Part shown: piece after piece, positions 9,651 through 64,000 of the stretch
Numbering within the stretch: position 1 is the stretch's first letter
Layout of the letters: every line of letters begins with the position of its first letter
Assembly (NCBI GenBank): GCA_947494565.1
Contig: CANLVG010000002.1
Location: 434,001-498,000 of the forward strand
Reading direction: 5' to 3'
Length of the DNA stretch: 64,000 bases
Source of the DNA: an uncultured Flavobacteriaceae bacterium
GTDB lineage: Bacteria; Bacteroidota; Bacteroidia; Flavobacteriales; Flavobacteriaceae
Notes under the pieces: generated by a model
What the model saw: only the letters and a program-made list of their open reading frames with translations
The model's database searches: none
What the model was told of the DNA's origin: nothing
Program-made: the position numbers and the translations under genes

Positions 9651-10082
9651 ATGAAAAAAGTACTCTTTCTCGGTCTTCTTATTTTGGTGCTCACGGATTG
9701 TAATCACAATGATGCTAATGATCCCATTGCAGCTGATTGCACTGTCGTCGCTTGCACGAACGAGTTTGTAACCTTAACCGTATTAGTAAAGGATAAAGAT
9801 GGTGTCTTGATTCCGCTCGATCGTTTTGAGGTAGTCGATTCGAAAACCGCGGAAGACATTACACCGGAACTCTCTTCGGAGGAATTTCAAACAGCCAGGC
9901 AAATTGGACGGTACCCAATCTACAGCGATGCATTTCTTATGGGAAATCAAAATACCCAAAAGAACCTTGTTTTTAGAGGTTTTATTAATGAGGAAAGGCT
10001 TGTGAATGCCGAAATCGTAGTAGCCATCGATTGTTGCCATGTAAGTATAGCTTCAGGGGATACTACTATCGTTATCAACTAG
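9651..10082 (+). CDS. Small putative lipoprotein, function unknown
   Basis: Started at the ATG at 9651 (MKKVLFLGLLILVLTDC), giving 143 residues; 13 upstream in-frame codons look non-coding. A short basic start and hydrophobic core lead to a Cys at residue 17, a probable but imperfect lipobox because the residue before Cys is Asp. Asp-rich residues after the Cys could favour surface or outer membrane sorting. The mature part has several Cys (DCTVVACTNEF, DCCHVS) that could form disulfides and an Ig-like strand pattern, but I recognise no family. Confidence 0.6.
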   Translation: MKKVLFLGLLILVLTDCNHNDANDPIAADCTVVACTNEFVTLTVLVKDKDGVLIPLDRFEVVDSKTAEDITPELSSEEFQTARQIGRYPIYSDAFLMGNQNTQKNLVFRGFINEERLVNAEIVVAIDCCHVSIASGDTTIVIN

Positions 10083-10100
10083 ATCAGCTCTAAAATTTCC

Positions 10101-10108
10101 TACCTTTA
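10101..10108 (+). promoter_or_regulatory. Candidate -7 box upstream of the PHP-like lipoprotein gene
   Basis: TACCTTTA is one mismatch from the Bacteroidota TAnnTTTG element and lies 26 bases before the ATG at 10135. No clear TTG -33 element is seen. Confidence 0.35.
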
Positions 10109-10134
10109 GCTTTCAATACAATGCTTGGCTATTT

Positions 10135-11358
10135 ATGGAAATCTTCAAAACAAAAAAAATCATCCTCTTTCTGGTTTTACTATCGATACTAGGGTGCAAG
10201 GAAAATAAACCGGCATCGGAAGACGATGAATTATCCCAACAATGGTACAAGGGAAACCTGCACACCCATTCCTACTGGAGTGACGGGGATGAATTTCCTG
10301 AAGTGATAGTAGACTGGTACAAATCTGAAGGGTATCAATTTATCGCCTTATCAGATCACAACACTGTGGCTAAAGAAGAAAAATGGATAACGATTTCAGA
10401 AGATTCCATCTATCAAAAGGCTTTTCAAAGGTATCTTGAAAAGTACGGCACTGATTGGGTCATCCATAAAATAGATTCCGGACGGACCATGGTCAGGCTC
10501 AAAACGTATGACGAATACAAAAACCGTTCGGAAGAGGTAGACAAGTTCTTGGTCATACCCTCGGAAGAAATTACCGATGAATTCGAGGGCAAGCCTTTGC
10601 ATATGAACGCCACCAATATTCAAACCAAAATTGAGCCTCAAGGCGGTTCTAGCGTATCACAGGCATTACAAAATAATATTGACCAAGTACTGAAACAGAG
10701 GCAAGAAACAGGAATACCCATAATGCCGCATGTAAACCATCCGAATTTTGGGTACGCAATTCACCTTAATGATATGATTTCCTTGAATGGAGAACGTTTC
10801 TTCGAAGTATACAATGGGCACCCCATGGTGCATAATATGGGCGATTCGACTCGTGTTTCGACCGAAGAGATGTGGGACCTGATCAATATTTCCTATTTGG
10901 AAAACAAAAAACCGATCATGTACGGCTTGGCGACCGATGATTCGCATCACTATCACAAGTCAGGTAATGAATGGAGCAATGCCGGACGAGGTTGGGTGAT
11001 GGTACAGGCTGATTCGCTTTCCGCCTCCTCCTTGATAACAGCTTTAGAAGCAGGAAACTTTTATTCAAGTACTGGAATTACATTGAAGAGCATAACACGC
11101 GAAAATAATCGCCTATTTATTGAAATAGACCAAGAAAAAGGAGTCGAATATACCCTTACTTTTATAGGGCTAAGAAATGGAAAATCAGAAACGGAAGAAT
11201 TGATTTCGGTCAAGGGAAACCAAGCCGATTTTGAAATGACCGAAGATATCGTTTTTGCACGTTGTAGAATCACCTCCTCCAAATTACAATCCAATCCAAT
11301 CGAAAGAATCCTTTATGAAATGGCTTGGACTCAACCTGTAATAAGAGATGCGCAGTAA
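10135..11358 (+). CDS. Exported PHP-domain-like metal-dependent phosphoesterase (lipoprotein)
   Basis: 407 residues with a lipoprotein signal (IILFLVLLSILGC, Cys about residue 21). The mature start shows PHP-type motifs: GNLHTHSYWSDG (HxH metal ligands), GYQFIALSDHN (the SDH motif), then later HVNHPNF and ATDDSHHY. These are the metal-binding blocks of the polymerase/histidinol phosphatase fold. Export as a lipoprotein suggests it acts on an extracytoplasmic phosphoester or related substrate. Genes of this kind recur in marine Bacteroidota, but I cannot name the substrate. The C-terminal ~90 residues form a strand-rich domain. Confidence 0.75.
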   Translation: MEIFKTKKIILFLVLLSILGCKENKPASEDDELSQQWYKGNLHTHSYWSDGDEFPEVIVDWYKSEGYQFIALSDHNTVAKEEKWITISEDSIYQKAFQRYLEKYGTDWVIHKIDSGRTMVRLKTYDEYKNRSEEVDKFLVIPSEEITDEFEGKPLHMNATNIQTKIEPQGGSSVSQALQNNIDQVLKQRQETGIPIMPHVNHPNFGYAIHLNDMISLNGERFFEVYNGHPMVHNMGDSTRVSTEEMWDLINISYLENKKPIMYGLATDDSHHYHKSGNEWSNAGRGWVMVQADSLSASSLITALEAGNFYSSTGITLKSITRENNRLFIEIDQEKGVEYTLTFIGLRNGKSETEELISVKGNQADFEMTEDIVFARCRITSSKLQSNPIERILYEMAWTQPVIRDAQ

Positions 11359-49479: not shown

Positions 49480-50235
49480 GTGATTTTTTTCGATGCCGCT
49501 ACTATTTCAATTACCGCCTGGGCCCTAGCCTTTACGGCTGCTGTGGTCATTGGCTTCTCAAAGGCGGGGATAAAGGGGATTGCTATTGTCAACGTCACCC
49601 TTATGGCCTTGGCTTTTGAAGCGAAAGAGTCGACCGGAATCGTAGTACCGCTTTTGGTTTTTGGAGATATTTTCGCGGTAATCTACTACAACCGACACAC
49701 CAAATGGTCGTACATTTTTCGTTTCCTACCTTGGATATTGGTTGGTATCCTCATTGGCGTTCTTATTGGGAACGATTTAGACGAAGCCACGTTCAAAATC
49801 GGAATGGCCATAATTATTCTGGTCAGTGTTGTCATGATGTATTGGTGGGATAGACGGAAGTCGAAAGCTGTCCCGACCCATTGGCTTTTCGCAGGAATCG
49901 TCGGCACCATCGCAGGTATTACGACCATGATCGGTAATCTTGGCGGGGCATTTAGCAATATCTATTTTCTGGCGATGCGGGTGCCCAAGAATGAATTTAT
50001 CGGCACGGCTGCGTGGTTGTTTCTCATCGTCAATATCTTAAAACTTCCGCTGCATATTTTTGTTTGGGAAACGATAACACTCGACACGTTCCTGTTCGAT
50101 CTCAAGCTTATTCCAGGAATCATATTGGGTATTTTTGTAGGTATCAGAGTAGTGAAACTAATCAAAGAGGATTTCTACCGAAAGATGATCTTGGTGCTGA
50201 CCGCCTTAGGTGCGCTACTGATTTTATTTCGGTAA
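49480..50235 (+). CDS. TauE/SafE family sulfite/organosulfur exporter-like protein
   Basis: 251 residues with seven to eight membrane segments. VIGFSKAGIKGIAIVNVTLMAL and GTIAGITTMIGNLGGAFSNIYFLA are the repeated family motif of TauE/SafE permeases. They move sulfite, sulfonates or other anions. No sulfur gene is nearby. Confidence 0.85.
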   Translation: MIFFDAATISITAWALAFTAAVVIGFSKAGIKGIAIVNVTLMALAFEAKESTGIVVPLLVFGDIFAVIYYNRHTKWSYIFRFLPWILVGILIGVLIGNDLDEATFKIGMAIIILVSVVMMYWWDRRKSKAVPTHWLFAGIVGTIAGITTMIGNLGGAFSNIYFLAMRVPKNEFIGTAAWLFLIVNILKLPLHIFVWETITLDTFLFDLKLIPGIILGIFVGIRVVKLIKEDFYRKMILVLTALGALLILFR

Positions 50236-50357: not shown

Positions 50358-52925
50358 ATGAGACTGTTCGTATTGCTTTTCTGTATTTTTTTCGCTGTAA
50401 GTTCATGTAGTACTCTTGGTCTTACAGGGAAGAAAAAAACATCCATCACCAAAAACACGAAATCACCTGGAAAGGGAACGTCTTTTTCCGATTTCGTCCC
50501 GAAGGATGCAATCTCACAACAGGGCTTGCTCAATGTACATCAAGTCGGAAGGAAATTCTACTTTGAAATTGCGGATAGTCTCCTGAATCGCGAAATTCTA
50601 GTGGTTACCCGTTTCATAAAGACCCCCTCCGGTGCCCGAAATTACGGCGGCGAAAAAATAGCGGAGAATACCATCGTTTTTGAAAAGAGTCCGACGAACC
50701 AAATCTTCCTAAGAATTGCGACTTTAGTCAGCGCCGCCGACGAAAACGACGCGATTTCGAGGGCGGTCAATAATTCTAATATCACCCCCATTCTCGAGGC
50801 CTTTGAAATTCAGGTAAGTGATCAAAAGCGCGCTTCGCACCTCATCGAAGTCACCGATTTTCTCAATAGTGAAAACCCATTACTAGCACTAAGCAGCCAA
50901 AAAAAGGAGGCCTATCGTTTATTGGGTCTGGAGAAAGATAAGTCATATATCAACGAGATCAATTCGTTCCCATTAAACACCGAAATAAAAACGGTGAAGA
51001 CCTATAAAGCGAAATCAAGTAAGGAGAAACGAAAAAAGCAATTGCCTGCGGCCGTTTTGGCGGGGGTGGTCACCTTGGAAATCAACAACTCTTTTATTCT
51101 TCTTCCTCAAGAACCGATGCAAAAACGCCATTTCGATGCCCGCGTGGGGTACTTTGCAAGTTCGTATCTGGAATATGGTGATGACCAACAAAAAGTGGAC
51201 AGAAACACCTATATCCACCGCTGGCGCTTAGAACCAAAGCCTGAGGATATCACAAAATGGGAACGCGGTGAACTGGTAGCGCCTAAAAAGCCAATTGTAT
51301 ACTATATTGACCCCGCCACTCCCAAAAAATGGAGGCCCTACTTGATACAGGGCATCAATGATTGGCAGGTTGCTTTTGAGCAGGCCGGTTTCAAAAATGC
51401 CATCATCGGCATGGAATGGCCCGAAGACGATCCGGCCATGAGTCTCGAAGACTCCCGTTTTTCCGTGCTGCGCTACTTCGCCTCTCCTTTTAAAAATGCC
51501 TATGGACCAAATATCGTCGATCCACGAAGTGGTGAAATATTGGAGAGTCATATCGGTTGGTACCACAATCTATTGAATTTATTGCACAGCTGGTATATGG
51601 TGCAGGCGGGCGCGGTCGATTTTCGAGCACAACAGATGGAATTCGATACCGAACTCATGGGGCAACTCGTGCGTTTTGTAAGTTCACATGAAGTAGGTCA
51701 TACCCTTGGCCTTCGTCATAACATGGGATCAAGCTCTGCTACGCCTGTCGAAAAACTAAGGGATGCCGAATGGCTTTCCAAAAATGGACATACCTCCTCT
51801 ATCATGGATTATGCCCGCTTCAATTATGTGGCGCAACCTGAAGATAACATTCCCTTGGAGCACTTGATGCCTCGTATCGGCGACTATGACAAATGGGCTA
51901 TTCAATGGGGTTATTCCCGATTTCCGGACTCATTGGAGCCTAAGGAAGAAAAAGAGCTGTTAAGCCAGATGGTCGTGGATAGTGTGAGAAATAATCCTAG
52001 GCTATGGTTCGGTGGTGAAGGACGTGATTTTGATCCGCGCTCCCAAACCGAGGATTTAGGGGACAATGCGATGGAAGCCAGTATGTACGGCATTCTCAAT
52101 CTGCAACGTATCGCTCCTTGCATCAAAGAATGGGTCAAAGAAAATGATAGTGATGATTTCGCCAATCTGGATCAAATCTATAAGGATCTTGTGAATCAAT
52201 ACAGTGACTATATATTTCATGTATCCAAAAACATCGGAGGCATCTATGTAAGCCCAAAAACTATGGGGGAAACAGGGGAAGTCTACCGCCCAGTGCCCAA
52301 ACAACTCCAAAAACAGGCATTGGCCTTTCTCAATACCTATATTTTTCATGAGCCCAAATGGTTGATGCGTAATGATATTCTCAATGCCATTCGTTCACCG
52401 CAATCGAAGGAAAGTGTCACCAAGACTATGGAAAGTGTGATGATCAACTTGCTCGGGGGAAGCCGGATCAGCCGAATGACCTTTATTTCAGAGCGCTATG
52501 AAGATGAGAATCCATACCGCCCAGAAGAATATATCGATGATCTCAACCAATTGGTCTGGGGCGATATGAATGTCTTTTATCAAACCAATGCGTATCGTCG
52601 TAAACTTCAAAAATCATATGTTTCTAATATGATCGCGCTGTACAAGCCAGATGTTACCGAAGGTATTGTTGAAGGACTTTTGGCCGAATTATCGAAGGGG
52701 TATACCTCGAATACGGATGTACGATCGCTAGCTTTGGATAATCTGCTGACCTTGCAGGGGAAAATAAAAAGAACGTTGCCTGTAATGACAGACAGACTTA
52801 CTATCGCCCATTTGAACTATCTCAAACGAGAGATTGAAGCTGTGGTCGGGGAAACGGATGACGTTGACCCCTTGTTCATTCCATTTCGAAAGGATATCTC
52901 CATTAAGGAAGAAGGCAAAGAATAG
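50358..52925 (+). CDS. Zinc-dependent metzincin metalloprotease (DUF5117/DUF5118 type, lipoprotein)
   Basis: 855 residues with a lipoprotein signal (FFAVSSC, Cys17). The central HEVGHTLGLRHN at 444-455 is the extended metzincin zinc site, with the Met-turn in SIMDYARFNYV. The flanking N-terminal (DUF5118) and C-terminal parts are those of large Bacteroidota secreted proteases with this domain layout. Likely an outer-membrane or periplasmic protease of unknown substrate. Convergent with the kelch gene. Confidence 0.88.
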   Translation: MRLFVLLFCIFFAVSSCSTLGLTGKKKTSITKNTKSPGKGTSFSDFVPKDAISQQGLLNVHQVGRKFYFEIADSLLNREILVVTRFIKTPSGARNYGGEKIAENTIVFEKSPTNQIFLRIATLVSAADENDAISRAVNNSNITPILEAFEIQVSDQKRASHLIEVTDFLNSENPLLALSSQKKEAYRLLGLEKDKSYINEINSFPLNTEIKTVKTYKAKSSKEKRKKQLPAAVLAGVVTLEINNSFILLPQEPMQKRHFDARVGYFASSYLEYGDDQQKVDRNTYIHRWRLEPKPEDITKWERGELVAPKKPIVYYIDPATPKKWRPYLIQGINDWQVAFEQAGFKNAIIGMEWPEDDPAMSLEDSRFSVLRYFASPFKNAYGPNIVDPRSGEILESHIGWYHNLLNLLHSWYMVQAGAVDFRAQQMEFDTELMGQLVRFVSSHEVGHTLGLRHNMGSSSATPVEKLRDAEWLSKNGHTSSIMDYARFNYVAQPEDNIPLEHLMPRIGDYDKWAIQWGYSRFPDSLEPKEEKELLSQMVVDSVRNNPRLWFGGEGRDFDPRSQTEDLGDNAMEASMYGILNLQRIAPCIKEWVKENDSDDFANLDQIYKDLVNQYSDYIFHVSKNIGGIYVSPKTMGETGEVYRPVPKQLQKQALAFLNTYIFHEPKWLMRNDILNAIRSPQSKESVTKTMESVMINLLGGSRISRMTFISERYEDENPYRPEEYIDDLNQLVWGDMNVFYQTNAYRRKLQKSYVSNMIALYKPDVTEGIVEGLLAELSKGYTSNTDVRSLALDNLLTLQGKIKRTLPVMTDRLTIAHLNYLKREIEAVVGETDDVDPLFIPFRKDISIKEEGKE

Positions 52926-53993
52926 CTATTGCGCGTATTTTTCCATGGTGAACAATTCTGGTGAGCCGCCGCGATTTCCACAACCCGAGGCAATATATAA
53001 CGCTCCCTCATATTCAACAAGACCGGTGCCATGTCGCCCTTCCAATAAAGGATCAAGGCTTTCCCATTCATTGGTCGTCAGATTCAAGGCTTCGACCTCG
53101 GCATGAGCTTTCTGTTGTGCTGTAGACTCCCCGCCGATTACCAATACCTTATCCTGAAACAAGGTAGCCGCATTACCAGCTCTTACGGTGGGAAGGTTAT
53201 TGGGGAGGGTTTCCCATGTATTGCTCGAAATATCATAGCTATCGACTTCTGCGATGGTACCTCCAAAAGGCTGGTCAGGAAATATACCGGTATTTCGTCC
53301 TGCAGGAGCAACGATTTTTCCATTGACCAAAACGGCCTGAAAATGGTCACGGGCCCGGGGGGCGTCTGCCAGCACCTCCCACGTACCGGTAGCCGGGTCG
53401 TACAAGTCCATCCACTTTTTATGGTCTCCTATATGTCCATTTTTGATGCCGCAAGCGATGTACACCTTTCCGTTGTACAAGACATTCCCCGTAGAACCTC
53501 TTCTCCGCGCTTCGGGAATCTCATCGCCTTGACTCCATGAATCAGTAGCCGTATCATAGATATACACATGTGTTACGGGCGTTTCATTGGGCCATCCGCC
53601 GGTTAAGGCTCCGATGATATAGATTTTGCCTTCTATGACCACGGGCTGAAAATGATGTAGTTCCAATGGCGGTTCCGGTCCTGTGGTCCAACTTTCATCT
53701 TGGGTATCGAAAATACTCACGGCACGAATATCCCTTCCGCCCAATAAGTAGAATTTCTGACCTACCCGAACAAAAGCGGCCTCATGGCGCTGAATGGGTT
53801 GACTATCATCTGCGGCTACTACAGCTTGCCAGGTGAAAGGTGTGGTATCATTATCCGTTTCCGAATCCGTGTCAGTATCGGTATCGGTTTCCGTATCAGT
53901 TTCAGTTTCCGGTAATGGGGTATCCCCTTTGGTATCTTCTTTACAATTGATGAAGACTAGTAGGCAAAACAAATAAAATACGTTCTTTATCAT
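52926..53993 (-). CDS. Kelch-repeat lipoprotein
   Basis: 355 residues started at the ATG at 53993 (MIKNVFYLFCLLVFINC); lipobox Cys about 17. After a Thr/Glu/Asp-rich spacer (about residues 27-48) come about six kelch blades, e.g. FYLLGG, IYIIGALTGGW, VYIACG, VLVIGG and LYIASGCG, making a beta-propeller. Kelch lipoproteins often sit beside SusCD loci and bind or process the substrate (N-acetylneuraminate epimerase is one kelch type). Here it ends the putative phosphonate locus. Confidence 0.8.
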   Translation of the reverse strand: MIKNVFYLFCLLVFINCKEDTKGDTPLPETETDTETDTDTDTDSETDNDTTPFTWQAVVAADDSQPIQRHEAAFVRVGQKFYLLGGRDIRAVSIFDTQDESWTTGPEPPLELHHFQPVVIEGKIYIIGALTGGWPNETPVTHVYIYDTATDSWSQGDEIPEARRRGSTGNVLYNGKVYIACGIKNGHIGDHKKWMDLYDPATGTWEVLADAPRARDHFQAVLVNGKIVAPAGRNTGIFPDQPFGGTIAEVDSYDISSNTWETLPNNLPTVRAGNAATLFQDKVLVIGGESTAQQKAHAEVEALNLTTNEWESLDPLLEGRHGTGLVEYEGALYIASGCGNRGGSPELFTMEKYAQ

Positions 53994-54118
53994 GGCTTTC
54001 GGGTATTCATAGTTCAACCGAAATATATAAATAAGAAACCCTACGACCAAACTTCCCGAGAGACGATCTGCTAAAAGATTGAAGCATTTAAACTATTGTG
54101 CTATCCCTTAGTATGACA

Positions 54119-54145
54119 AGAGCCGGTGTTCAATACACCGGCTCT
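54119..54145 (-). terminator. GC-rich hairpin after the alkaline-phosphatase-type gene
   Basis: AGAGCCGGTGT pairs perfectly with ACACCGGCTCT around a five-base loop. It lacks a T-run on either strand; a regulatory or 3'-end-protecting role is possible. Confidence 0.5.
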
Positions 54146-54250
54146 ACAACTAACTTAAACCAAACTAACTCAAATAATCTTATCTCAAAATTCGTGGATT
54201 TTCGCCTAAGGTAGATTAACTAAACTTGAAGTTTTGTTTAACTATATGCA

Positions 54251-55345
54251 CTAGTTTCCGGAAACCTCAAGGGCATTATTTTTTATCGAACCCTTCTCAC
54301 TTTTTAAGCCTAATGCTTTGGCAATTGTCGGGGCTATTTGCGAACTATAAATCTGACTTTGCGTTGAAACTTCCCCAAGGGTAGCGACATCTTTACCGAA
54401 GAGAATGAGCCAAACACCCCCTGCTCCGGACACCTTATTACCATGGCTTTTCCAACTTTCCAAGGGATCGGTACCGCGTCCGTGGTCTGTAGTGATCAAG
54501 AACAGCGTATTGTCTTTGTAAAACGGATCGGCTTGGGTAAAGTTCCACAGTGCTTGGATCATGTTATCCGTAGTATTCGCTGATTTCAAATAAGCTTCAT
54601 AGTCCCCATCGTGAGCGAAATCATCCGTTTCGCCATAGGCGATATATATAAATTCAGGATGCTCCTTTTTCATATGTTCCAGGGCATAAGAATGTGTAAA
54701 AACGTCTAAACGAACCGTACTCCATGGACTGGGTGCCATGGGCTGCAACTCGTTCAAAAACCTTTCCCGTTCGCTGAGGTGCTGCCCGGTTGCCAGTTCG
54801 AACCCCGCATTTACAGGAACGCCCGATCGTTCTTCATTTACGATAAACGGAAAGACATCCCAACTGCCGAAGGCAGCTACCTTGCCTTTATACCTCGAAT
54901 CACTGTTCGCAACTTCCAAAATTGTGACATTCGGATTTGGAATTTTGTCATTACTGTTGATTCTGGTATCATCGGCCTTGCCTGATAGGATTTCATTGTA
55001 CCCAGGGTATGAGAACCACATCGTATTTGTCAGATCCACCTTGCTCCCTACATTTCGATTGCCATGAAGTTGTCCTATTTTAGAAGCTTTTTGCCAAATA
55101 AAGGGCAGTAAGGCTTCCCGTCGCTCTTTTAGGCTTTCCCTCCAGAATCGTTGTTTTAAGTCCGTGGTGTCATGAACATATTCCGAATTGGATACCAAAA
55201 GCGGATCGGCACCTGAAAAGAGCTCTTGCCAACGCAAGCCATCAAGGGTGATTAGAACAACCTTAGTGTTTTGTTCTTGCGCATTTCCTACCAAGAACCC
55301 GATACCCATACATAACAGTAATACTTGAATTTTTATGTTTTTCAT
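54251..55345 (-). CDS. Secreted alkaline phosphatase superfamily enzyme
   Basis: 364 residues with a signal peptide (VLLLCMGIGFLVGNAQ). VVLITLDGLRWQELFSGAD gives the first metal Asp (35), TNTMWFSYPGYNEILSG the nucleophile region, GETDDFAHDGDYE and ITTDHGRG the other metal ligands. This is the nucleotide pyrophosphatase/phosphonoacetate-hydrolase-like branch. In a SusCD locus with phosphonate genes it likely releases a phospho- or phosphono-group outside the cytoplasm. 78 bp after SusD. Confidence 0.82.
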   Translation of the reverse strand: MKNIKIQVLLLCMGIGFLVGNAQEQNTKVVLITLDGLRWQELFSGADPLLVSNSEYVHDTTDLKQRFWRESLKERREALLPFIWQKASKIGQLHGNRNVGSKVDLTNTMWFSYPGYNEILSGKADDTRINSNDKIPNPNVTILEVANSDSRYKGKVAAFGSWDVFPFIVNEERSGVPVNAGFELATGQHLSERERFLNELQPMAPSPWSTVRLDVFTHSYALEHMKKEHPEFIYIAYGETDDFAHDGDYEAYLKSANTTDNMIQALWNFTQADPFYKDNTLFLITTDHGRGTDPLESWKSHGNKVSGAGGVWLILFGKDVATLGEVSTQSQIYSSQIAPTIAKALGLKSEKGSIKNNALEVSGN

Positions 55346-55423
55346 ATCATGCGGCGTTATACATTCTTTTTTTCCGTTCTGTTTTATAACCTGCTCTAAA
55401 TGTAATCAAAGTAGGATAAACTT

Positions 55424-56869
55424 CTAATTTTCCCACCACCCTTTGGTATTGATATCATCTGCTCCAAAGGCGGAAACCGCCGCCTTGTAGTTGTCTCCGT
55501 TCAATGTTTGTTCAGAATCGGGATACAGGAAACGCACAGGTACGGCATCATTGTTCACATTATCGGGTCCTGGAACGATAACGGAGGGTAAGCCCGTTCT
55601 ACGGAAATCATACCATGATTCCAATCCGACGAGGAAGGAAGCCAACCACTTTTGGGTCATGATGGTTTCCAATTGATCGTCATAGGCAACACCAGGTTGT
55701 GCGGTATAGGCGGCAATATCCTGATCAACGTCCCAATACTCAAATGAGAGCCGAATACCTTCGGTATAGAGGGTTTCGGCATCTGCGGAAATAAGTCCAC
55801 GCTGGGCGGCCTCGGCAAATAGGAAATGTACCTCAGCGGTCTGAATGATCGCTGCCTGTACCGAGTTAGATGAATCATAGAAAAACGCCTGGTTGATTCT
55901 GGATACATTATTTGCCCCACCGTTAAAGGTCGATGCATTATCCTCACTGAGTCCATTAGTGAGGCCCACAAAAAGCGACGGATCATCTTCAGGGTTATCA
56001 GTAGGCTGAAACCAGCGTTGCAGTCGATTGTCATCAAAAGACTTTAATACCGCCTCACTGGTTTCGCTCATGCGATGCTCGTCAAAACCACCGATACGGC
56101 CTGTACTTATGGGCCAAGAGTCTATTTGGGTAGTCGCAGGGTATAGCATCACCGCATTATCGTCATTGGTCGCAATAAAGATACCCGAATCCAATATGGC
56201 TTGTACCTCTGCTCCGACATCATTTCTATTTGAGGTACGCATTAAATAGCGCAGGCGTAACGAATTGGCAAACTTCAGCCATTTAGTTGTATCGCCTCCA
56301 TAAAGTATATCTCCCCCCAGAATCGATTGGTTTAGTGCCAATTGGGTTTCGGCCCTACGTAGGTCATCCAATATTCCTGCATAAATCGCCTGTTGGGAAT
56401 CGTAAGCCGGAGTAAAGTTACCTTCGGTAGCCGTAATGGCCTCCGAGTACGGTACATCTCCCCAGTTATCGGTCAAATTGGCAAAGACATAGGCACGCAA
56501 GACCAGGGCCATGCCCTCGTAGGAGGTGTTTTTGGTCTCTTCGGCCAAGGCGCTCTCCAAAATCAGCTCTATTTCTGGAAGAATCCCATAATAAGTGTTC
56601 CATAAACCTGATTCAGAACCCCAATTATACCGATCAAAACCCGTAAAATTGATTTTAGCGGTCAACTGGGCCACAATATTCCCTCGGTCCCATCCACCTG
56701 CATCGGCGGTCGTGGTCGCCAGTGTAGAAATTACCGTTGAAAGCAACAGGTCTGCACTGACCTCTTCGGGTTGATTGGGATTCCTGTTTGTTTCTTCAAA
56801 ATCTTTTGTGCACCCCGTTAGGGTGATCAAAGCAAGGAGAAGGATTTTAGTTTTCATATATTTTTTCAT
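55424..56869 (-). CDS. SusD/RagB family nutrient-binding outer membrane lipoprotein
   Basis: 481 residues. The lipobox ALITLTGC is followed by TKDFEETNRNPNQPEEV, the start typical of SusD-like group 2 lipoproteins. The rest is the helical TPR-like SusD fold with FRRTGLPSV near the end. It forms the lid on SusC and captures substrate at the cell surface. 14 bp after susC. Confidence 0.92.
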   Translation of the reverse strand: MKKYMKTKILLLALITLTGCTKDFEETNRNPNQPEEVSADLLLSTVISTLATTTADAGGWDRGNIVAQLTAKINFTGFDRYNWGSESGLWNTYYGILPEIELILESALAEETKNTSYEGMALVLRAYVFANLTDNWGDVPYSEAITATEGNFTPAYDSQQAIYAGILDDLRRAETQLALNQSILGGDILYGGDTTKWLKFANSLRLRYLMRTSNRNDVGAEVQAILDSGIFIATNDDNAVMLYPATTQIDSWPISTGRIGGFDEHRMSETSEAVLKSFDDNRLQRWFQPTDNPEDDPSLFVGLTNGLSEDNASTFNGGANNVSRINQAFFYDSSNSVQAAIIQTAEVHFLFAEAAQRGLISADAETLYTEGIRLSFEYWDVDQDIAAYTAQPGVAYDDQLETIMTQKWLASFLVGLESWYDFRRTGLPSVIVPGPDNVNNDAVPVRFLYPDSEQTLNGDNYKAAVSAFGADDINTKGWWEN

Positions 56870-56883
56870 CTTTTCTATCGATT

Positions 56884-59800
56884 TTAGAAGGTTACATTGA
56901 GGTTGAACCCATAACTTCTTGAGCTAGGGAGTGCCATATCTTCGACCCCTGGTACGATGGTACCGCCATTGAACGATATGGTTTCAGGGTCGAAATGTGG
57001 GTTCTCAGTCCATAAGGCCAAATTTCTTCCGACTAGGGAAAGGTTTATGGACTGGATAAAGGTGTTCTTTAAGAGCTTTTTAGGCAGATTGTATCCAATT
57101 TTCACTTCACGAAGTTTCAAGAAGGAGGCATCGAACATACCGATTTCCTCGTTGCCCCGATTATAACGCCACCAGTAGTAATCCCGACCGCTTAAGCGAA
57201 CGTCATTGGGGCGATAGCTTCCGTCCGTATTTTGAATGACCCCTTCAGAAATAATACCTTCCTCACGGCCAACGGCGGTAAAATCCATCAGACCTGAAGT
57301 ACCTCCGATCAATACGGTTCTAGACATAATAACTCCCCCTTGGCGCCAATCGAATAAAACACCCAAGTTGAAACCCTTATAGGTAAAGGTGTTCTGTAAG
57401 CCCAATGTAAAATCAGGATTATAGTTTCCTAGCAATTTCAAGTTGGGGTCGCGCAGCGAGAACCCATCTTCATTGTGAACTACCTGCCCAAAGAATGCAC
57501 TGTTCGGGTCGTCAACAGTGACCAGTCCGGTACCATAAACATCACCCATACGGCCGCCTACCTTTGCCTGGACACTTAAATAGTTGTTCGACATCTCATA
57601 GGTATCCAAACCTTCCGTCAACGATTTTACCTTGCCCCTTGCTCTTGTGAAGTTGGCCGTGGCATCCCATCTGAAATCCGTCGTTTGAACCGGTGTAGCG
57701 TTCAATACAACCTCTACACCTGTATTTTGGATTTCCCCGGCATTGATAATCCTTGAACTAAAACCCGATGTGTTCGTTACGGGTAAGGTTAGGATCTGGT
57801 TTTTGGTCGTCGAATCATACCAAGAAACGTCAAGTCCCAAACGATTATTGAACAACCGAAGGTCGGCCCCGATTTCAATGGAATTGGCCTGTTCTGGAAG
57901 TAGTTCTTCATTTCTAAGGACTTCGGAGGCACTGACCCTTTGAAAGTTTCCGAAGGGTTCATTGAATGAAAAAGTGTTCCGTAAGGCATAGGGATCGGTA
58001 TCATTACCTACTTTGGCCCAGCCACCACGAAGCTTGAAAAACGAAACTTGTTTGGGTAAGGTAAACATATCGGAAAGTATGGCACTAACGCCCACCGAAG
58101 GATAGAAGTACGAATTGTTGTCCGCAGGTAAGGTGCTTGACCAATCATTCCTTCCGGTAACATCCAAGAACAAATAATTTTTATAGGAAACATTGGCAAA
58201 TGCGTACAGCGAATTGATTTTTCGCATATCATTGAACTGTGTCTTGGATAAGGGTTCGGCGGAATTCGCAAAGTTGTAGATTCCCGGAATGGAGAGGGAG
58301 TTGGCACTGATACGCTTGAACCGATTTTCCTCTTCGCGAATGTTTCCTCCAATGGAGGCTCCAATGGTGAAGTCTTCGGTCGCTTCTTTAGTATAGGACA
58401 ACAGAAAATCCGTGTTTTGTTCCTTAAAGAAAATATCGTCTTCCCTATATTGCCCCCTTGCGAAACGCTGTGTACTGTATGCCCGACGGCCTGTACGCAA
58501 TTCCCCGAAATAATCGATCCCGGTACGCAACATCAAAGACAGGTCTTTGGCAATGTCGATATCAACACGGGCATTTCCGAAAATACGGTCCTTATTGAAG
58601 CCATTCGTATTCTCGTTCATTGTAAAATAAGGGTTGTCGTGCCAGTTATAGTTGTAATTGAACTGCTGTCTACCCTCGAGACCTGGCTGCCAGTAATCCC
58701 TTAAGGAGTTCATATTGATCTGACGCCCGAACCACACCCAGAGATACATAATGTTTTCGGTGCCATAAGAATTGTTGGGGCGATTGGTACTCCCGCTATT
58801 GACATAATTTATAGAGGACGAAACCTTTAACCACGGTCTCAGCTTATAGGAGCCACTGAGGGCATAGGTCTTTCGTTCATAATCCGTATTCGGCAAAATA
58901 CCCTCACTATCAAGATTGGTCAAAGACATCCTGAAATTACCGAACTCGTTACCGCCTGTCAACGAAAGGTTGGTAGTGCTGGTCATTCCGGTTTCAAAGA
59001 AATTTTCGATATTGTTAGGGTTAGCGACCCATGGCGTAGCCGTTATCTCATCTGCAAACGTACCATCGGCATTTCTGGGCCGCAGTGCGAAGTCTCCCGC
59101 TCTAAAACCGCTGCTGGTCGGACTGTCATGTTGAAATACCAAACGGCCATCCAATGGTGGACCCCAGCTTTCGTCAATGTTATCGTTGGTTCCTGCCCCA
59201 AAGCCATCGCCAAAAGAAAACTCGCCCCCAGCCCCTTGACCGTATTGGTTTTGATATTTTGGGATACGCAATGCATTTTCAAAGGTGAGGTTTTGGGTAA
59301 AGCTTATGCCCAATCCTTTGGAACCTTTACCGGACTTCGTGGTAATCAACACCACGCCATTTAGTCCGCGCGACCCATACAAGGCCGTGGCATTCGGCCC
59401 CTTTAGTATAGAAATCGACTCGACATCATCGGGGTTTATATCTTGAGCGCCATTCCCATAATCCGTTTCCAAGTTGCCCTCTGCTCTATTGCTTATGGTT
59501 CTATTACTTATTGGGATCCCATCTACGACAAATAAGGGAGAGTTGTTTCCGGGGATAAGGGAGCCCTCACCCCGAATGGTAATCAAGGAAGTCGACCCTA
59601 CCCCAGAGCCGCCACCGGTAATCTGTACGCCAGCAGCCCTACCCGCAAGTGAATTTGTCACGTTGGTTTCACGAGCGGTCACCAGGTTTTCATTTTTCAC
59701 TTCCTGAACTGCATAACCCAGTCGCTTTTTTTCTTTTTTAATCCCCAGGGCCGTTACCACCACTTCATCAAGATTCTGCGCATCGGGTTGTAAAGCAATA

Positions 59801-60069
59801 TCGGCCGTGGTTTTTCCGGAAGTATCAAATTCTTGGGTGATATACCCTATATATGACACTTCTAAAATCTCGTTTCCCGTGGCAAGTTCAATTATAAAAT
59901 TGCCATCAAAATCGGACGCTACTCCATTGGAGCTACCTTTCACAACAACGGAAGCACCCGCTAACGGGTCGTTGTTTTCATCGAGCACCCTACCGGAAAA
60001 ATCGGTTTGGGCATGGGTCGTGGCCAGCATAAAAAATGCAAATACCAAACAGTATAGTGTTTCTTTCAT
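56884..60069 (-). CDS. SusC/RagA family TonB-linked outer membrane protein
   Basis: 1061 residues started at the ATG at 60069 (MKETLYCLVFAFFMLATTHA). Signal peptide, then a carboxypeptidase-regulatory-like domain (DFSGRVLDENNDPLAGASVV), the plug (DEVVVTALGIKKEKKRLGYAVQ, with GYG... and NPDDVESISILKGPNATALYGSRG) and the 22-strand barrel ending LNVTF. It imports the SusD-captured ligand with TonB energy. The regulator is divergent across 275 bp. Confidence 0.93.
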   Translation of the reverse strand: MKETLYCLVFAFFMLATTHAQTDFSGRVLDENNDPLAGASVVVKGSSNGVASDFDGNFIIELATGNEILEVSYIGYITQEFDTSGKTTADIALQPDAQNLDEVVVTALGIKKEKKRLGYAVQEVKNENLVTARETNVTNSLAGRAAGVQITGGGSGVGSTSLITIRGEGSLIPGNNSPLFVVDGIPISNRTISNRAEGNLETDYGNGAQDINPDDVESISILKGPNATALYGSRGLNGVVLITTKSGKGSKGLGISFTQNLTFENALRIPKYQNQYGQGAGGEFSFGDGFGAGTNDNIDESWGPPLDGRLVFQHDSPTSSGFRAGDFALRPRNADGTFADEITATPWVANPNNIENFFETGMTSTTNLSLTGGNEFGNFRMSLTNLDSEGILPNTDYERKTYALSGSYKLRPWLKVSSSINYVNSGSTNRPNNSYGTENIMYLWVWFGRQINMNSLRDYWQPGLEGRQQFNYNYNWHDNPYFTMNENTNGFNKDRIFGNARVDIDIAKDLSLMLRTGIDYFGELRTGRRAYSTQRFARGQYREDDIFFKEQNTDFLLSYTKEATEDFTIGASIGGNIREEENRFKRISANSLSIPGIYNFANSAEPLSKTQFNDMRKINSLYAFANVSYKNYLFLDVTGRNDWSSTLPADNNSYFYPSVGVSAILSDMFTLPKQVSFFKLRGGWAKVGNDTDPYALRNTFSFNEPFGNFQRVSASEVLRNEELLPEQANSIEIGADLRLFNNRLGLDVSWYDSTTKNQILTLPVTNTSGFSSRIINAGEIQNTGVEVVLNATPVQTTDFRWDATANFTRARGKVKSLTEGLDTYEMSNNYLSVQAKVGGRMGDVYGTGLVTVDDPNSAFFGQVVHNEDGFSLRDPNLKLLGNYNPDFTLGLQNTFTYKGFNLGVLFDWRQGGVIMSRTVLIGGTSGLMDFTAVGREEGIISEGVIQNTDGSYRPNDVRLSGRDYYWWRYNRGNEEIGMFDASFLKLREVKIGYNLPKKLLKNTFIQSINLSLVGRNLALWTENPHFDPETISFNGGTIVPGVEDMALPSSRSYGFNLNVTF

Positions 60070-60318
60070 TTTCTTTCGTATTTGTAAACTTTGGTTTATT
60101 ATTACGAAACAAATATCATAGACCACTGTTAGTAAAACATACTATTCATATTAACAAAAAGATATCCCTAGATTAAAAATATTATGAAATCGTTATCTGA
60201 AAATAATTTACAAATACTCAATTCAAGCAAAAGTTAATTTTGGGTAAAATTATTGGATTCTCGAGGGAAAAGACGGGTTTCGAGGGAATCGGATAAGGTT
60301 CTGATTTCAATTAAATGC

Positions 60319-60326
60319 TATGTTTG
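60319..60326 (+). promoter_or_regulatory. Candidate -7 box (TATGTTTG) of the XRE-cupin gene
   Basis: A perfect TAnnTTTG 18 bases before the ATG at 60345. The 60070-60344 space is AT-rich and also holds the susC promoter, for which no clean box is visible. Confidence 0.45.
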
Positions 60327-60344
60327 TAATCTACAACGTATTCT

Positions 60345-60911
60345 ATGGAAGATTATCTTATCGGTATTGGTAAGCGCATCAAGGAAATCAGAAAAGGCGG
60401 CGGAGCTACTATTAGTGAAATTGCTCAAAAGGCCGAAGTTACAGGTGGGCTGATATCGCGTATTGAAAATGGCAGAACCATTCCTTCTTTGCCCGTTCTC
60501 TTAAAAATCATTACTTCCCTAGATGTGGAGGTAACGGAGTTCTTCGGCGGAATGCCCCAGGTAAACGGAGCTAATTTCATTGTTTCTAGAAAGGAAGAGA
60601 ATGCTGTTATTGAGAAGGAGGACGAGGCCATTGGTTTTGAATACACTTATATTTTTGGTAAACAGTTATCGTCACTGGGTTTCGAAACCGTACTATTAGA
60701 AGTCAAACCCAATTCAAAGCGCGACAAAGTACGCACGGATGCTTTTGAGTTCAAATATATACTGTCTGGAGAGTGCTCCTATATCATCAATGAAGAGGAG
60801 GTCTGCCTAAGGGAAGGCGATTCGATATTTTTTGACGGGCGTCTTCCACATGTACCCGTGAATAGGGGCACCGTCTCTTCGAAAATGCTAGTGATCTACT
60901 TTTTTATTTGA
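60345..60911 (+). CDS. XRE family regulator with C-terminal cupin
   Basis: 188 residues: an N-terminal helix-turn-helix (ISEIAQKAEVTGGLISRIENG, residues 24-44) and a C-terminal cupin (about 105-185; FKYILSGECSYIINEE, then LREGDSIFFDGRLPHVPVN). This HTH-cupin form often regulates amino acid or small-molecule catabolism by sensing the ligand in the cupin. Divergent from susC and convergent with the HAD gene, it is the natural candidate regulator of the locus. Confidence 0.88.
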   Translation: MEDYLIGIGKRIKEIRKGGGATISEIAQKAEVTGGLISRIENGRTIPSLPVLLKIITSLDVEVTEFFGGMPQVNGANFIVSRKEENAVIEKEDEAIGFEYTYIFGKQLSSLGFETVLLEVKPNSKRDKVRTDAFEFKYILSGECSYIINEEEVCLREGDSIFFDGRLPHVPVNRGTVSSKMLVIYFFI

Positions 60912-60939
60912 ACCGTTCGAAAAGGTTTTTAATCGCAAC

Positions 60940-61617
60940 CTATGGTTTAAGGTACGGAGTGAGTTCAAAAAGTGAATCGACGACGTAGGTCGGTTTTGCA
61001 GATTCCAATTGTTGCCGTGTATGGGCCCCGGTAGTTACCCCAACGGTTATGCCACAATGGGCATTTTTACCCTCTTCGATATCGATGATTGAATCTCCGG
61101 CCTTCAGAACGTTTTCGGTGTCAAAAACGTTCAAAGCTTCCATGGCCTCGAAAATCATATCGGGATGGGGTCTTCCTAATATGACATCATCGGCGGTAAC
61201 CAAAGTGTCATATTGTTGCCCTTTGACCCAGTTCATTTTTTGTAATAGCCGTGTTGCAATGGGTTTCGAATACCCGGTATTTAGGGCAATTTTGATCTTT
61301 TTTGACCGCAAATGTTCCAAAAGCGGCACTACACCTTCGAAAGAGGTGACTTTCAAGGTGTCATACGCTATATCAAGCATTCTTTTGAAGTCTTCGAAAA
61401 TCGGTTCTGAATCTAATTTGCTGTCGGCATCCAGCTGGGCCAATATGTCCTTTATGGCTTGGTGCTTCTCCTTACCAGCGCCGTACTCAAGTACAAAATC
61501 CAGAGAAAGGCCGAAGCCAGTTTTGTTGATGGCTTTTTGAAGGGTTTTATAGACTACATTGTCTTCATTGACGACGGTACCCGCCATATCAAAAACCACT
61601 AGTTCGATTTTATGCAT
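60940..61617 (-). CDS. Phosphonatase-like HAD hydrolase
   Basis: 225 residues started at the ATG at 61617 (MHKIELVVFDMAGTVVNED). The nucleophile Asp10 is in FDMAGT as in phosphonatase (FDWAGT). The cap shows EYGAGKEKHQAIKDI, whose Lys49 and His52 align by eye with the Schiff-base Lys53 and His56 of PhnX. LNTGYSKP gives motif II and AGDSIIDIEEG motif IV. The TIGR03351-type family splits the C-P bond of phosphonoacetaldehyde or relatives. Its start overlaps the FAD gene's end by eight bases. Confidence 0.85.
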   Translation of the reverse strand: MHKIELVVFDMAGTVVNEDNVVYKTLQKAINKTGFGLSLDFVLEYGAGKEKHQAIKDILAQLDADSKLDSEPIFEDFKRMLDIAYDTLKVTSFEGVVPLLEHLRSKKIKIALNTGYSKPIATRLLQKMNWVKGQQYDTLVTADDVILGRPHPDMIFEAMEALNVFDTENVLKAGDSIIDIEEGKNAHCGITVGVTTGAHTRQQLESAKPTYVVDSLFELTPYLKP

Positions 61618-62773
61618 GTTGTAAATTAAAGATTTTAGCAATGTTTTCTTCCGCAAAGCCAGCACTTCCGGTCATGCCTTTGCCTCCGATACCGGTTACG
61701 ACATGAATATCGTCATCAATAGTATTCCGATAGATATCGGAAGTTTTGCACTGCGAGTAAAACCCCGGCCATCGACGTTGAATGTCGTAGGTCGGTAGGT
61801 CAATAATCTTTTTAGCCTCTTGAATAATGAAATCATCGATATCCATATTCAAGTCCGTCCCCAAATCATCCATTCGATGGGCGTCTGCGTACTGGTGCGA
61901 GTCGCCAATGATAACGGAACCGTCGGTCGCTTGTTTGAATAAAATATGTACTCCCCATTTTTTGATGAGGGAGTCTTGGTCTTCTCGAGCCTTGATTTCG
62001 TGATAAGATGGACATTCGGCGAAGGATTCATAGCGACGAATGGAGAGTCCAGTTAAAATGGAGCTAGGAAGGGTGAAATTCCCCTGTGGTTTTGTCTGCA
62101 TCATTTGCAATTTGGACACTTCTAAATCGCTCTCCTCGAACAATCGCGGATAGAGCGTTTTGAATTCGCTTCCATTACAAATGATAACCTTTGAGGCAAG
62201 AAGGGTCTTGCCGCCTGAAAGATAGACTTCAACACCCTCCGATAGCTTATTGCATTCGAGTACCGTGTTTTGGAGGAATAAATCCAAACCTACGGCTTTT
62301 AGATACGTGTGTACTTTATTGACCATCAAACGAGGTTCGACCATAATTTCCTCTGGGAAAAAGAGCCCTGCCTTCACATAGTCTGATCGCAGACCGACAT
62401 AGCGCTCCAAACACTCCTCTTTCGTCAATAAAACCGATGTATATTGGTTATTTTGATTGATTCGATGAAGCTCTTCCAGTAGTTGTACTTCTTCCTCGTT
62501 CGCAGCAAAGTATACTGATCCTTCCTGACGTACGGAAATATCAAAGGCTTCCTGTATTTCCTTATAGATCCTTAAGCTTCGGCGTCCATAGGCTTGCCAT
62601 TTGGAATTCATGCCTGAAGGGACTACTTGCCCAAAATTGCGGACGGTTGCACTCTGAGGAGTACGATCTTTTTCTATTAAGGCGACTTTAAGTCCGTGTT
62701 TCAGTGCGTGATAGGCATGAAAGGTTCCCAGAACCCCTCCGCCTACAATAATCAAGTCATATCCGTTTTTCAT
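61610..62773 (-). CDS. TIGR03364-type FAD-dependent oxidoreductase (phosphonate-associated)
   Basis: 387 residues of DAO fold. DLIIVGGGVLGTFHAYHALKH is the FAD site, and ATVRNFGQVVPSG and HVVTGIGGKGMTGSAG match the clade that clusters with phosphonatase genes. Known phosphonate-linked members oxidise aminoethylphosphonate or N-methyl forms to phosphonoacetaldehyde. The product would feed the adjacent HAD enzyme, with which it overlaps by eight bases. Confidence 0.83.
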   Translation of the reverse strand: MKNGYDLIIVGGGVLGTFHAYHALKHGLKVALIEKDRTPQSATVRNFGQVVPSGMNSKWQAYGRRSLRIYKEIQEAFDISVRQEGSVYFAANEEEVQLLEELHRINQNNQYTSVLLTKEECLERYVGLRSDYVKAGLFFPEEIMVEPRLMVNKVHTYLKAVGLDLFLQNTVLECNKLSEGVEVYLSGGKTLLASKVIICNGSEFKTLYPRLFEESDLEVSKLQMMQTKPQGNFTLPSSILTGLSIRRYESFAECPSYHEIKAREDQDSLIKKWGVHILFKQATDGSVIIGDSHQYADAHRMDDLGTDLNMDIDDFIIQEAKKIIDLPTYDIQRRWPGFYSQCKTSDIYRNTIDDDIHVVTGIGGKGMTGSAGFAEENIAKIFNLQHA

Positions 62774-62847
62774 CTACTCCATTTTAGTTATACCATTAAC
62801 TGGGTTCGATCATCTCTACCGACCATTCTATTCATGCTCCCCCGATC

Positions 62848-64000
62848 TTAAACAATGCGCATTTGCTGTTCCGAGGGAAGTTGCACTTTCTTATACTTTG
62901 ACCTAAAATATACTAACGAAAGTATGCCAACAACCAAACCTATCAAGGCAACGAGGTAGGTACTATTGATAAAGAACCGTACCCACGAAAGTTCGCCTTG
63001 ACCAAAATTTTTATAGAGCAGAACACCTATGCTTCCAAGGTATCCGAAAGCATCGGCGATATAAATGAGGAAACCCACATTACCTTGTATTCTAAATACC
63101 GCGATCATTCGATCAAAAAATAGCCCGTTAAAAGGCACATAACAGCTATAAAGTCCAAAACCTGTGACCATCATCCATACCAGCGGGGAAACGAGCTCCA
63201 TTTGATACAAGAAGGTATTGGTACCGATAATCAACACTCCAAAAAGCAAGAGGTAGTGATAATATAGAAAGGCCTTTTTGTTGTTTTTTATGAAACTCAT
63301 TGCTCCCAATGCCAATAATACCACGATGGCTATCGGAATTTCCGCAAGCGTGTAAACGGATACATCTCCTTCATACCCTATAGCATCCCAAATTTCACGA
63401 GAAAAATTGTCTCTGAAATCTCGCAAGGCGGTCAAGCAAGTATAGAAGAAAACAAGTATGGCCAAGGGAAACATAAAGGTACGTATCAACTGTTTTCGGT
63501 CTGACCGGGTCATCGGGTCTCTTTTTGAGCGTAAGGTCATGTCTTCGGCAGTAGGTTGGGGCATGCGCTCTAACAAGAAAGCAAAACAGGCAAAAGGAAT
63601 CAAAAAAAGTGCTCCGGTTACCGCAGGCATCCATATTTCAGCAATCTGAAGTTGATTGAGCACAACAAGCCCTATCGACTTAACGGCACCGCTTGAAACA
63701 ATAAAGCTAGAACAAAGGGCGACACCAAGAATCTCGGTAAACTTTCGCCCTTCTAAATATGAAAACACGATGCCCCATATCATTCCCAGTGAAAGGCCGT
63801 TTAGAAACATAAAAATGATATTATACGGGGCTGATAGCACACCAAAGGCTATCAAACAACCTTCAGCCAAAAGAATCATGCCAAGCAGGTACGGCAATCT
63901 GCGATTGGGGCTTAGTTCCGAAATCAATTGAATACCGATGAACTTAGATAGCATATACCCCAACACCTGCGAAATGATCAACAATATCTTATAATCTATA
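62848..64000 (-). CDS. DUF5690 family membrane protein, 5' truncated by window
   Basis: The frame is open to the window end (DYKILLIISQVLGYMLSKFIG), so the N terminus is missing. At least 378 residues with about ten membrane segments and an MFS-like layout (LGMIWGIVFSYLEGRKFTEI, then RDFRDNFSREIWDAIGY). DUF5690 in Bacteroidota is recurrently next to TIGR03364/phosphonatase-like genes. I infer an inner-membrane importer of the phosphonate. 74 bp upstream of the FAD gene. Confidence 0.82.
   Translation of the reverse strand, partial: IDYKILLIISQVLGYMLSKFIGIQLISELSPNRRLPYLLGMILLAEGCLIAFGVLSAPYNIIFMFLNGLSLGMIWGIVFSYLEGRKFTEILGVALCSSFIVSSGAVKSIGLVVLNQLQIAEIWMPAVTGALFLIPFACFAFLLERMPQPTAEDMTLRSKRDPMTRSDRKQLIRTFMFPLAILVFFYTCLTALRDFRDNFSREIWDAIGYEGDVSVYTLAEIPIAIVVLLALGAMSFIKNNKKAFLYYHYLLLFGVLIIGTNTFLYQMELVSPLVWMMVTGFGLYSCYVPFNGLFFDRMIAVFRIQGNVGFLIYIADAFGYLGSIGVLLYKNFGQGELSWVRFFINSTYLVALIGLVVGILSLVYFRSKYKKVQLPSEQQMRIV

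Follow-up and report, generated by a model that had tools for sequence, protein, structure and literature searches.

A cluster of genes at the end of a 64,000-nucleotide stretch of DNA from an uncultured Flavobacteriaceae bacterium (the window; contig positions 434001-498000 of a 5.39 Mb genome) joins an outer-membrane transporter pair of the SusCD kind to enzymes of phosphonate breakdown. Our analysis indicates that this cluster is probably a unit for the outer-membrane uptake and hydrolytic catabolism of aminophosphonates of the 2-aminoethylphosphonate (AEP) type. All eight genes named in an initial annotation of the window were found at or very near their expected places and were confirmed by position and by profile scores.

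Gene content of the locus

The locus comprises the following features, listed from the end of the window inwards:

62848..64000, continuing to about 64131 past the window end, minus strand: DUF5690 (PF18943), about 427 residues; predicted to be a major-facilitator carrier related to the organophosphate:phosphate antiporters (OPA type) and proposed to import aminophosphonates
61610..62773, minus strand: flavin adenine dinucleotide (FAD) oxidoreductase of TIGR03364 (PbfD family); proposed to convert AEP or N-methyl-AEP to phosphonoacetaldehyde
60940..61617, minus strand: phosphonatase-like HAD of TIGR03351, overlapping the end of the FAD gene; proposed to cleave the carbon-phosphorus (C-P) bond, giving acetaldehyde and phosphate
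60345..60911, plus strand: divergent XRE-cupin (PuuR-like) regulator with HTH_3 and Cupin_2
60207..60221, plus strand: putative operator between susC and xre, no mismatches to the pattern TTTACAAATANTNAA
60074..60088, minus strand: second copy of the motif adjoining the susC start, one mismatch to the pattern
56884..60069, minus strand: SusC, TonB-linked outer-membrane transporter (TIGR04056)
55424..56869, minus strand: SusD lipoprotein of the SusD-like_2 type (PF12771)
54251..55345, minus strand: exported enzyme of the alkaline phosphatase (AP) superfamily (PF01676/PF01663; signal peptide judged by eye); proposed phosphonate-ester or phosphodiester hydrolase
52926..53993, minus strand: kelch lipoprotein, lineage-specific and a doubtful member

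The DUF5690, FAD and HAD genes thus precede the divergent regulator on the minus strand, and SusC, SusD, the AP-superfamily enzyme and the kelch lipoprotein follow it. The probable starts of three genes were corrected to in-frame ATG codons picked by the position of the signal or lipobox (HAD 61617, SusC 60069, kelch 53993). The initial annotation had advised extending the sequence past position 64000, and this extension completed DUF5690: no ATG lies at a fitting place, and a TTG about 131 bases beyond the window end gives a length equal to that of the Croceitalea protein. Upstream of DUF5690 lies a divergent metallophosphatase-like gene, so that DUF5690 comes first in its transcript.

The absence of glycoside hydrolases asserted in the same annotation was borne out, as no glycoside hydrolase family was matched at E 0.001 among the ten proteins scanned (the eight locus genes and two flanking ones). 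In the SusCD pair, SusC reaches 691.8 bits with TIGR04056 against a cut-off of 368.25, being one of 18 unsplit SusC genes over that cut-off in the host genome, where one split frame exists as well, and SusD reaches 314.7 bits with PF12771, being one of seven genes over the cut-off of that family. Since the pair stands here with no match to a carbohydrate-active family in the ten proteins, the locus resembles a polysaccharide utilisation locus (PUL) only in form. The kelch lipoprotein, which the initial annotation had counted as a member, fared differently. It matches Kelch_6 and other kelch families and, with 46.2 bits against a cut-off of 45, PF24996, which makes it distantly like N-acetylneuraminate epimerase; no match to it at E 1e-8 was found in any of 75 related loci, some of which extend only a few kb beyond the phosphoesterase, and we rejected it as a working part.

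The proposed catabolic enzymes and the predicted carrier

The FAD enzyme scores 415.5 bits with TIGR03364 against a curated cut-off of 285.1. Its identity to an unannotated Acinetobacter baumannii frame is 34% over 97% of its length, and it is likewise 34%, over 96%, to proteins that are encoded on Acinetobacter plasmids and annotated as TIGR03364, whose genes adjoin phnW, the phosphonoacetaldehyde hydrolase gene and genes of a putative AEP ABC transporter; on a Rhizobium plasmid the TIGR03364 gene adjoins phnX. According to the main text of Zangelmi 2023 (PMC10590968), PbfD1 of A. baumannii is annotated as TIGR03364, and PbfD1 and PbfD2 use oxygen as the acceptor when they oxidise N-methyl-AEP or AEP, phosphonoacetaldehyde being the product; sarcosine, taurine and beta-alanine are named there among the non-phosphonate analogues that are not turned over, and the legend of its assay panel lists phosphoethanolamine. 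The same text puts the identity of PbfD1 and PbfD2 at only about 30%, so the window's enzyme, with its 34% to Acinetobacter TIGR03364 proteins (the PbfD1 sequence itself not being among those compared), lies within that spread. Family membership suggests that the enzyme would oxidise AEP or N-methyl-AEP to phosphonoacetaldehyde.

The best PDB sequence matches of the HAD protein are phosphonoacetaldehyde hydrolase, and with TIGR03351 it scores 222.9 bits against a cut-off of 218.9. We aligned 86 rows, namely the 87 loci with a HAD match less two partial ones plus the window, one row being a true PhnX. The nucleophile aspartate is present in all 86, and a GxxK motif follows it at a distance of 39-41 residues, again in 86/86; in Bacillus cereus phosphonatase the lysine at this place forms the Schiff base. 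A column count on the raw alignment returns this lysine in only 71/86 rows, owing to alignment slips in the distant members. As a member of its family, the protein would be expected to cleave the C-P bond by forming a Schiff base with its lysine. The host genome holds no PhnJ match and no PhnW at E 1e-30, and a search for phosphonate synthesis found no phosphoenolpyruvate (PEP) mutase over the cut-off, only a PEP-mutase relative below it.

In the exported AP-superfamily enzyme the residues D35, S112, D241, H245, D287, H288 and H301 are invariant in 11/11 sequences, and with roles assigned by the NPP/iPGM pattern they supply the ligands of two metals and the Ser/Thr nucleophile. The structure of the enzyme was considered as a guide to its substrate and rejected, because the model is weak and its matches are scattered among YejM, phosphoglycerate mutase, NPP and sulfatases. 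The related phosphoesterases of other loci have further domains: PA14 and CHB_HEX_C domains are found in the Flagellimonas and Zobellia types, which belong to PF01663, a hemopexin repeat is found in the Tenacibaculum type, and the enzyme of one locus (L068) has a LamG domain and a secretion tail. On account of these lectin-like domains, a phosphonate bound to a glycan is somewhat more probable than a lipid. Judging from its context, the enzyme may cleave a phosphonate ester, and the cargo of SusCD may be such an ester or a fragment of it.

DUF5690 matches PF18943 with 536.1 bits and no other Pfam family at E 0.001. The AlphaFold (AF2) model of the Croceitalea orthologue, which is 73% identical to the part of the protein inside the window, has a predicted local distance difference test score (pLDDT) of 89, and among its 797 Foldseek matches in the PDB ranks 1-13 are all SLC37A4, the glucose-6-phosphate transporter (G6PT). 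GlpT stands at rank 48 and other major facilitator superfamily (MFS) carriers lie in between; the fold alone therefore says MFS, and it is the ranking that says OPA. Alignment of the DUF5690 profile with a GlpT/UhpT/UhpC profile by hhalign gave E 1.6e-4, and the control profiles, which differ in size, gave 0.53 (ExuT/DgoT) and 0.7 (LacY alone). Against single sequences the values were 5e-4 for UhpT, 0.029 for UhpC, 0.043 for GlpT, 0.061 for DgoT and 0.43 for ExuT.

In the OPA alignment R29 and R237 of DUF5690 (Croceitalea numbering) stand opposite R45 and R269 of GlpT, respectively, which are its two phosphate-binding arginines. R237 is kept in 41/41 rows and R29 in 40/41, in a set that counts the window protein twice, as fragment and in full; the exception is a gap in the fragment, which lacks that part. 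An arginine count from the DUF5690 tree set (25 rows) was rejected as circular, because the motif filter that removed 7 of the 29 genome rows itself required the arginines; a rereading without the filter covered 24 loci from the wider set, among them the seven lost genomes and in part the same loci as the 41 rows, and both arginines are present in 24/24. DUF5690 is thus like SLC37A4/G6PT and GlpT in its best fold matches and in keeping both arginines; it differs from them in its low identity (18-21% to SLC37A4, 14% to GlpT) and in that its role as a carrier is a prediction. Fold, arginines and gene context together suggest that DUF5690 is an aminophosphonate transporter, with weak homology at the level of sequence.

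Recurrence of the gene set and its regulation

The 75 related loci were collected by scanning contigs for short peptide patterns of the window's own FAD enzyme, which leans the collection to near kin, and for this reason 296 Bacteroidota genomes, drawn evenly, were taken as a counterweight. Partner genes were sought by tblastn (E 1e-6) within 11 kb, on flanks of mostly 10 kb that are shorter at contig ends, and the counts below refer to the 63 loci that remain after setting aside 12 with less than 8 kb on one side. Beside the FAD gene, DUF5690 and the HAD gene each occur in 61/63 loci, the XRE-cupin gene in 59 and the AP-superfamily enzyme in 53; an outer-membrane transporter is found in 56, as SusCD in 47 and as a lone TonB-dependent receptor in nine. 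PhnW was found by tblastn in none of the 63. Every kind of part is present in 50/63 loci, or in 51 if one locus (L012) with a 27% SusC match and no SusD match is counted. Sorted by best match, 33 loci have a phosphoesterase of the Flagellimonas type, 11 one of the Zobellia type, six one of the window's type and three one of the Tenacibaculum type, and ten have none; a few loci have two. The clustering is not by chance, and the synteny of SusCD with TIGR03364, HAD and DUF5690 on which the initial annotation had staked its proposal does exist in relatives.

In 29/63 loci the phosphoesterase is followed by an exported metallo-beta-lactamase-like protein with a Pfam score just under the cut-off (for example L016:19174-20445). 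In the Maribacter loci L022 and L023 the FAD gene, at about 10001-11149, lies near the same LpxH-like gene but has no HAD, DUF5690, regulator or transporter gene beside it, and it may be a remnant or have another use.

The wider sample has DUF5690 in 30 of its 296 genomes (29 over the cut-off) and TIGR03364 in 23 at E 1e-60 (22 over the cut-off), with both in 21, a co-occurrence of hypergeometric P 4.5e-23 that is uncorrected for relatedness. By their listed places the two genes lie within 5 kb of each other in 16 of those 21. Around the 23 TIGR03364 genes, in stretches some of which end early at contig ends, DUF5690, HAD and the AP-superfamily enzyme occur 17 times each, XRE 13 times, a lone TonB receptor four times and PhnW three times. 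For twelve of the 23 FAD proteins, identity to that of the window does not exceed 30%, and among these distant loci nine have DUF5690, eight HAD, six SusCD, nine the AP-superfamily enzyme and four all of them; that they keep their content despite changed order and strand argues for selection on content.

Seen from the side of DUF5690, 21 of the 29 genes over the cut-off have a phosphonate gene in their neighbourhood: for 16 it is TIGR03364, at no more than 5 kb, for two HAD (genomes G017 and G162) and for two PhnW (G119 and G126), and one stands in a DUF5690-PhnW-PhnX array (G014). In G126 (locus L140) SusD and an AP enzyme of the window's type follow further along; this genome has no phosphonatase at E 1e-15, and its C-P cleavage may be performed by another enzyme. 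The DUF5690 family thus accompanies AEP catabolism whichever enzyme takes the first step, though not always. The solitary DUF5690 genes (genomes G065, G080, G115, G122, G190, G249, G275 and G283) keep both arginines, which makes another organophosphate cargo possible for them. The eight solitary loci (L137, L138, L139, L142, L143, L144, L147 and L148) fall in three places of the family tree. A soil Hymenobacter plasmid (NZ_CP043649.1, locus L172) carries, by its annotation, SusC, SusD, a sulfatase-like gene, an alkaline-phosphatase-family gene, HAD, XRE and TIGR03364; no DUF5690 was found there by tblastn within a 19 kb stretch. The unit on this plasmid has two AP-superfamily genes by annotation.

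The regulator gene, which the initial annotation correctly described as divergent, encodes HTH_3 and Cupin_2 domains and scores 45.7 bits with the PuuR model, far below the cut-off of 211. In the related loci the 10-mer TTTACAAATA occurs on either strand in 48/67 regions upstream of XRE and in 37/72 upstream of DUF5690, and of its 162 occurrences in 1.47 Mb as many as 123 (124 with the window's own) fall in these upstream regions, which amount to about 41 kb. A TGTAAA-N5-TTTACA dyad is present in 11/67 XRE-upstream regions, against at most three in each of five shuffles. Within the 64 kb window the operator pattern has only two matches with at most one mismatch, both of them between susC and xre, and a third copy with one mismatch lies at about 64147-64161, just past the window and before DUF5690. 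The shared motif is suggestive but falls short of proof, because the pattern was derived from these very sequences, the window's own contexts included, and they are related to one another; a promoter element could account for some of it. The motif is consistent with control of both the susCD side and the DUF5690-FAD-HAD operon by the XRE-cupin protein, by which the locus would be induced by its substrate.

The window also contains a TauE/SafE-type exporter (49480-50235) and a large met-zincin with DUF4953/DUF5117/DUF5118 (50358-52925) next to the locus; a met-zincin 85% identical to it over 612 residues is also present in the related locus L040. Two genes beyond the divergent metallophosphatase-like gene, past the window and not belonging to the conserved set, a frame (L009:10302-11729) resembles a GH1 beta-glucosidase by eye.

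Proposed function and its alternatives

The central idea, outer-membrane uptake and hydrolytic aminophosphonate catabolism combined in one locus, has good support from the families and catalytic residues of the proteins, from the repeated co-localisation of the genes and from a motif common to both promoters. We propose that the exported phosphoesterase would free AEP or N-methyl-AEP from an ester, for example a phosphonoglycan or phosphonolipid, and that SusCD would capture the ester or its fragment, two steps suggested by gene context. The aminophosphonate may then enter the cytoplasm through the DUF5690 carrier, perhaps by exchange with phosphate. The FAD enzyme would convert it to phosphonoacetaldehyde and ammonia or methylamine, and the HAD protein would split this product into acetaldehyde and phosphate; the XRE-cupin protein would make the whole substrate-inducible. 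The steps from AEP to phosphate are those of tested enzyme families, and uptake by DUF5690 is suggested by fold, residues and context. The initial annotation had read the locus in much the same way. Its scheme is supported in part, namely for the combination of uptake and catabolism and, through family membership and catalytic residues, for the FAD and HAD steps, with AEP and N-methyl-AEP as candidate substrates; its guess of inner-membrane transport by DUF5690 is now supported by fold, arginines, profile and phosphonate neighbours, with the weakness in sequence homology already mentioned.

Several observations weigh against this interpretation. The HAD protein passes TIGR03351 by 4 bits only, and we did not file it as PhnX because it stays under the cut-off of the PhnX equivalog TIGR01422 (111.7 against 220 bits). 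The model of the AP-superfamily enzyme has a pLDDT of 68 and its fold match is at superfamily level only. For DUF5690 the hhalign probability is only 51%, GlpT did hardly better than the control DgoT, and an hmmsearch of PDB sequences with the DUF5690 profile returned no MFS chain, only one chance thioredoxin match. As for context, 12/63 loci (13 by strict count) are without one or more parts, L022 and L023 have the FAD gene without any partner sought, SusCD accompanies only 11/23 TIGR03364 genes in the wider sample, and 8/29 DUF5690 genes have no TIGR03364, phosphonatase or PhnW nearby, their neighbours having been read by eye with no search for other phosphonate genes.

One could argue that the locus is really two: SusCD and the AP-superfamily enzyme would scavenge phosphate from phosphate esters, as an ordinary Pus unit does, and the adjoining DUF5690-FAD-HAD operon would serve free AEP on its own. 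Flavobacterium does have PusCD units with phosphodiesterases that are induced by low phosphate, as the main text of PMC8115612 describes, and some loci (L054, L067) have the three catabolic genes but neither SusCD nor a phosphoesterase. However, most loci keep every part, content in the wider sample survives changes of order and strand, the same motif precedes both halves, and the regulator gene sits between them. Additionally, with 18 unsplit SusC genes over the cut-off and one split in 5.39 Mb, chance proximity is low, and we regard such a division as unlikely.

It is even less probable that the locus acts on an amino-alcohol phosphate ester such as phosphoethanolamine, with the FAD enzyme acting as a general amine oxidase and the HAD protein as a phosphatase. 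The HAD and DAO superfamilies are broad, many phosphatase models match the HAD protein under their cut-offs, and the OPA fold carries phosphate esters too; yet TIGR03364 and TIGR03351 are both over their cut-offs, and the lysine of GxxK fits the chemistry of a phosphonatase and not of a phosphatase. DUF5690 also accompanies PhnW and, in G014, a true PhnX. The enzymes of PMC10590968, moreover, were inactive on the non-phosphonate analogues named in its main text, as given above. Finally, an ordinary glycan PUL that happens to adjoin catabolic genes is very improbable: glycans are what SusCD pairs usually import, the kelch protein bears a distant likeness to an epimerase and the phosphoesterases of relatives carry PA14, LamG or CHB_HEX_C domains, but the ten proteins scanned include no glycoside hydrolase family (the search did not extend to glycosidases in related loci), the kelch gene lacks conservation and it is the phosphoesterases that recur.

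The aminophosphonate unit that we favour instead has partial counterparts among known systems. It is like the oxidative and hydrolytic PbfD-PhnX pathway for AEP (PMC10590968) in pairing a TIGR03364 FAD oxidase with a phosphonatase and no PhnW. It is unlike it in that its C-P hydrolase belongs to TIGR03351 and that SusCD, the exported AP-superfamily enzyme, DUF5690 and the XRE-cupin gene are added; the main text of that paper mentions the FCB group, though 'Bacteroid' and 'SusC' do not occur in it. With the PusCD of Flavobacterium (Lidbury 2020, PMC8115612) it shares a SusCD-like pair accompanied by phosphoesterases in place of glycosidases. PusD1 and PusD2, however, are PF07980/PF14322 proteins and low-phosphate-inducible, whereas the SusD here is PF12771 and its likely regulator XRE-cupin. 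SusCD-like complexes beside phosphonate-degrading enzymes in Flavobacterium were already mentioned in the main text of PMC8115612 in 2020, in which the terms 'phnX', 'aminoethyl' and 'FAD' do not occur; its clusters and the present locus may be partly the same. The AEP permease AepP (Murphy 2021, PMC8316502) is likewise a GlpT-related carrier adjoining AEP catabolic genes; that paper, as far as its consulted part goes, describes three transporters that take up AEP itself and reports AepP in one Bacteroidetes species, Kriegella aquimaris. DUF5690 is a separate Pfam family, to which the Kriegella protein may or may not belong.

Our literature search, whose scope excluded most subscription-journal papers, found no paper naming DUF5690, none from 2021 on that joins phosphonoacetaldehyde hydrolase, Bacteroidota and TonB-dependent, and none that joins 2-aminoethylphosphonate, Flavobacteriaceae and SusD. 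With SusCD beside phosphonate enzymes already in print, DUF5690 as a carrier is the freshest piece of the locus. A broader proposal, plausible though tentative, is that DUF5690 forms a new branch of OPA-type carriers partly devoted to aminophosphonate import, and that the locus represents a unit that recurs in rearranged forms and serves the use of surface polymers decorated with AEP. In such a unit one XRE-cupin regulator would govern a phosphonate-ester hydrolase that is exported, a SusCD pair or else a single TonB receptor, DUF5690, the oxidase (or PhnW) and the C-P hydrolase.

If our interpretation is true, Bacteroidota would possess a route from polymer-bound surface phosphonate to cytoplasmic phosphate, possibly switched on by the substrate and not by phosphate starvation. 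It would give DUF5690 a function and environmental surveys a set of gene markers. It would also mean that an outer-membrane locus for polymer utilisation can yield phosphorus and nitrogen instead of sugar.

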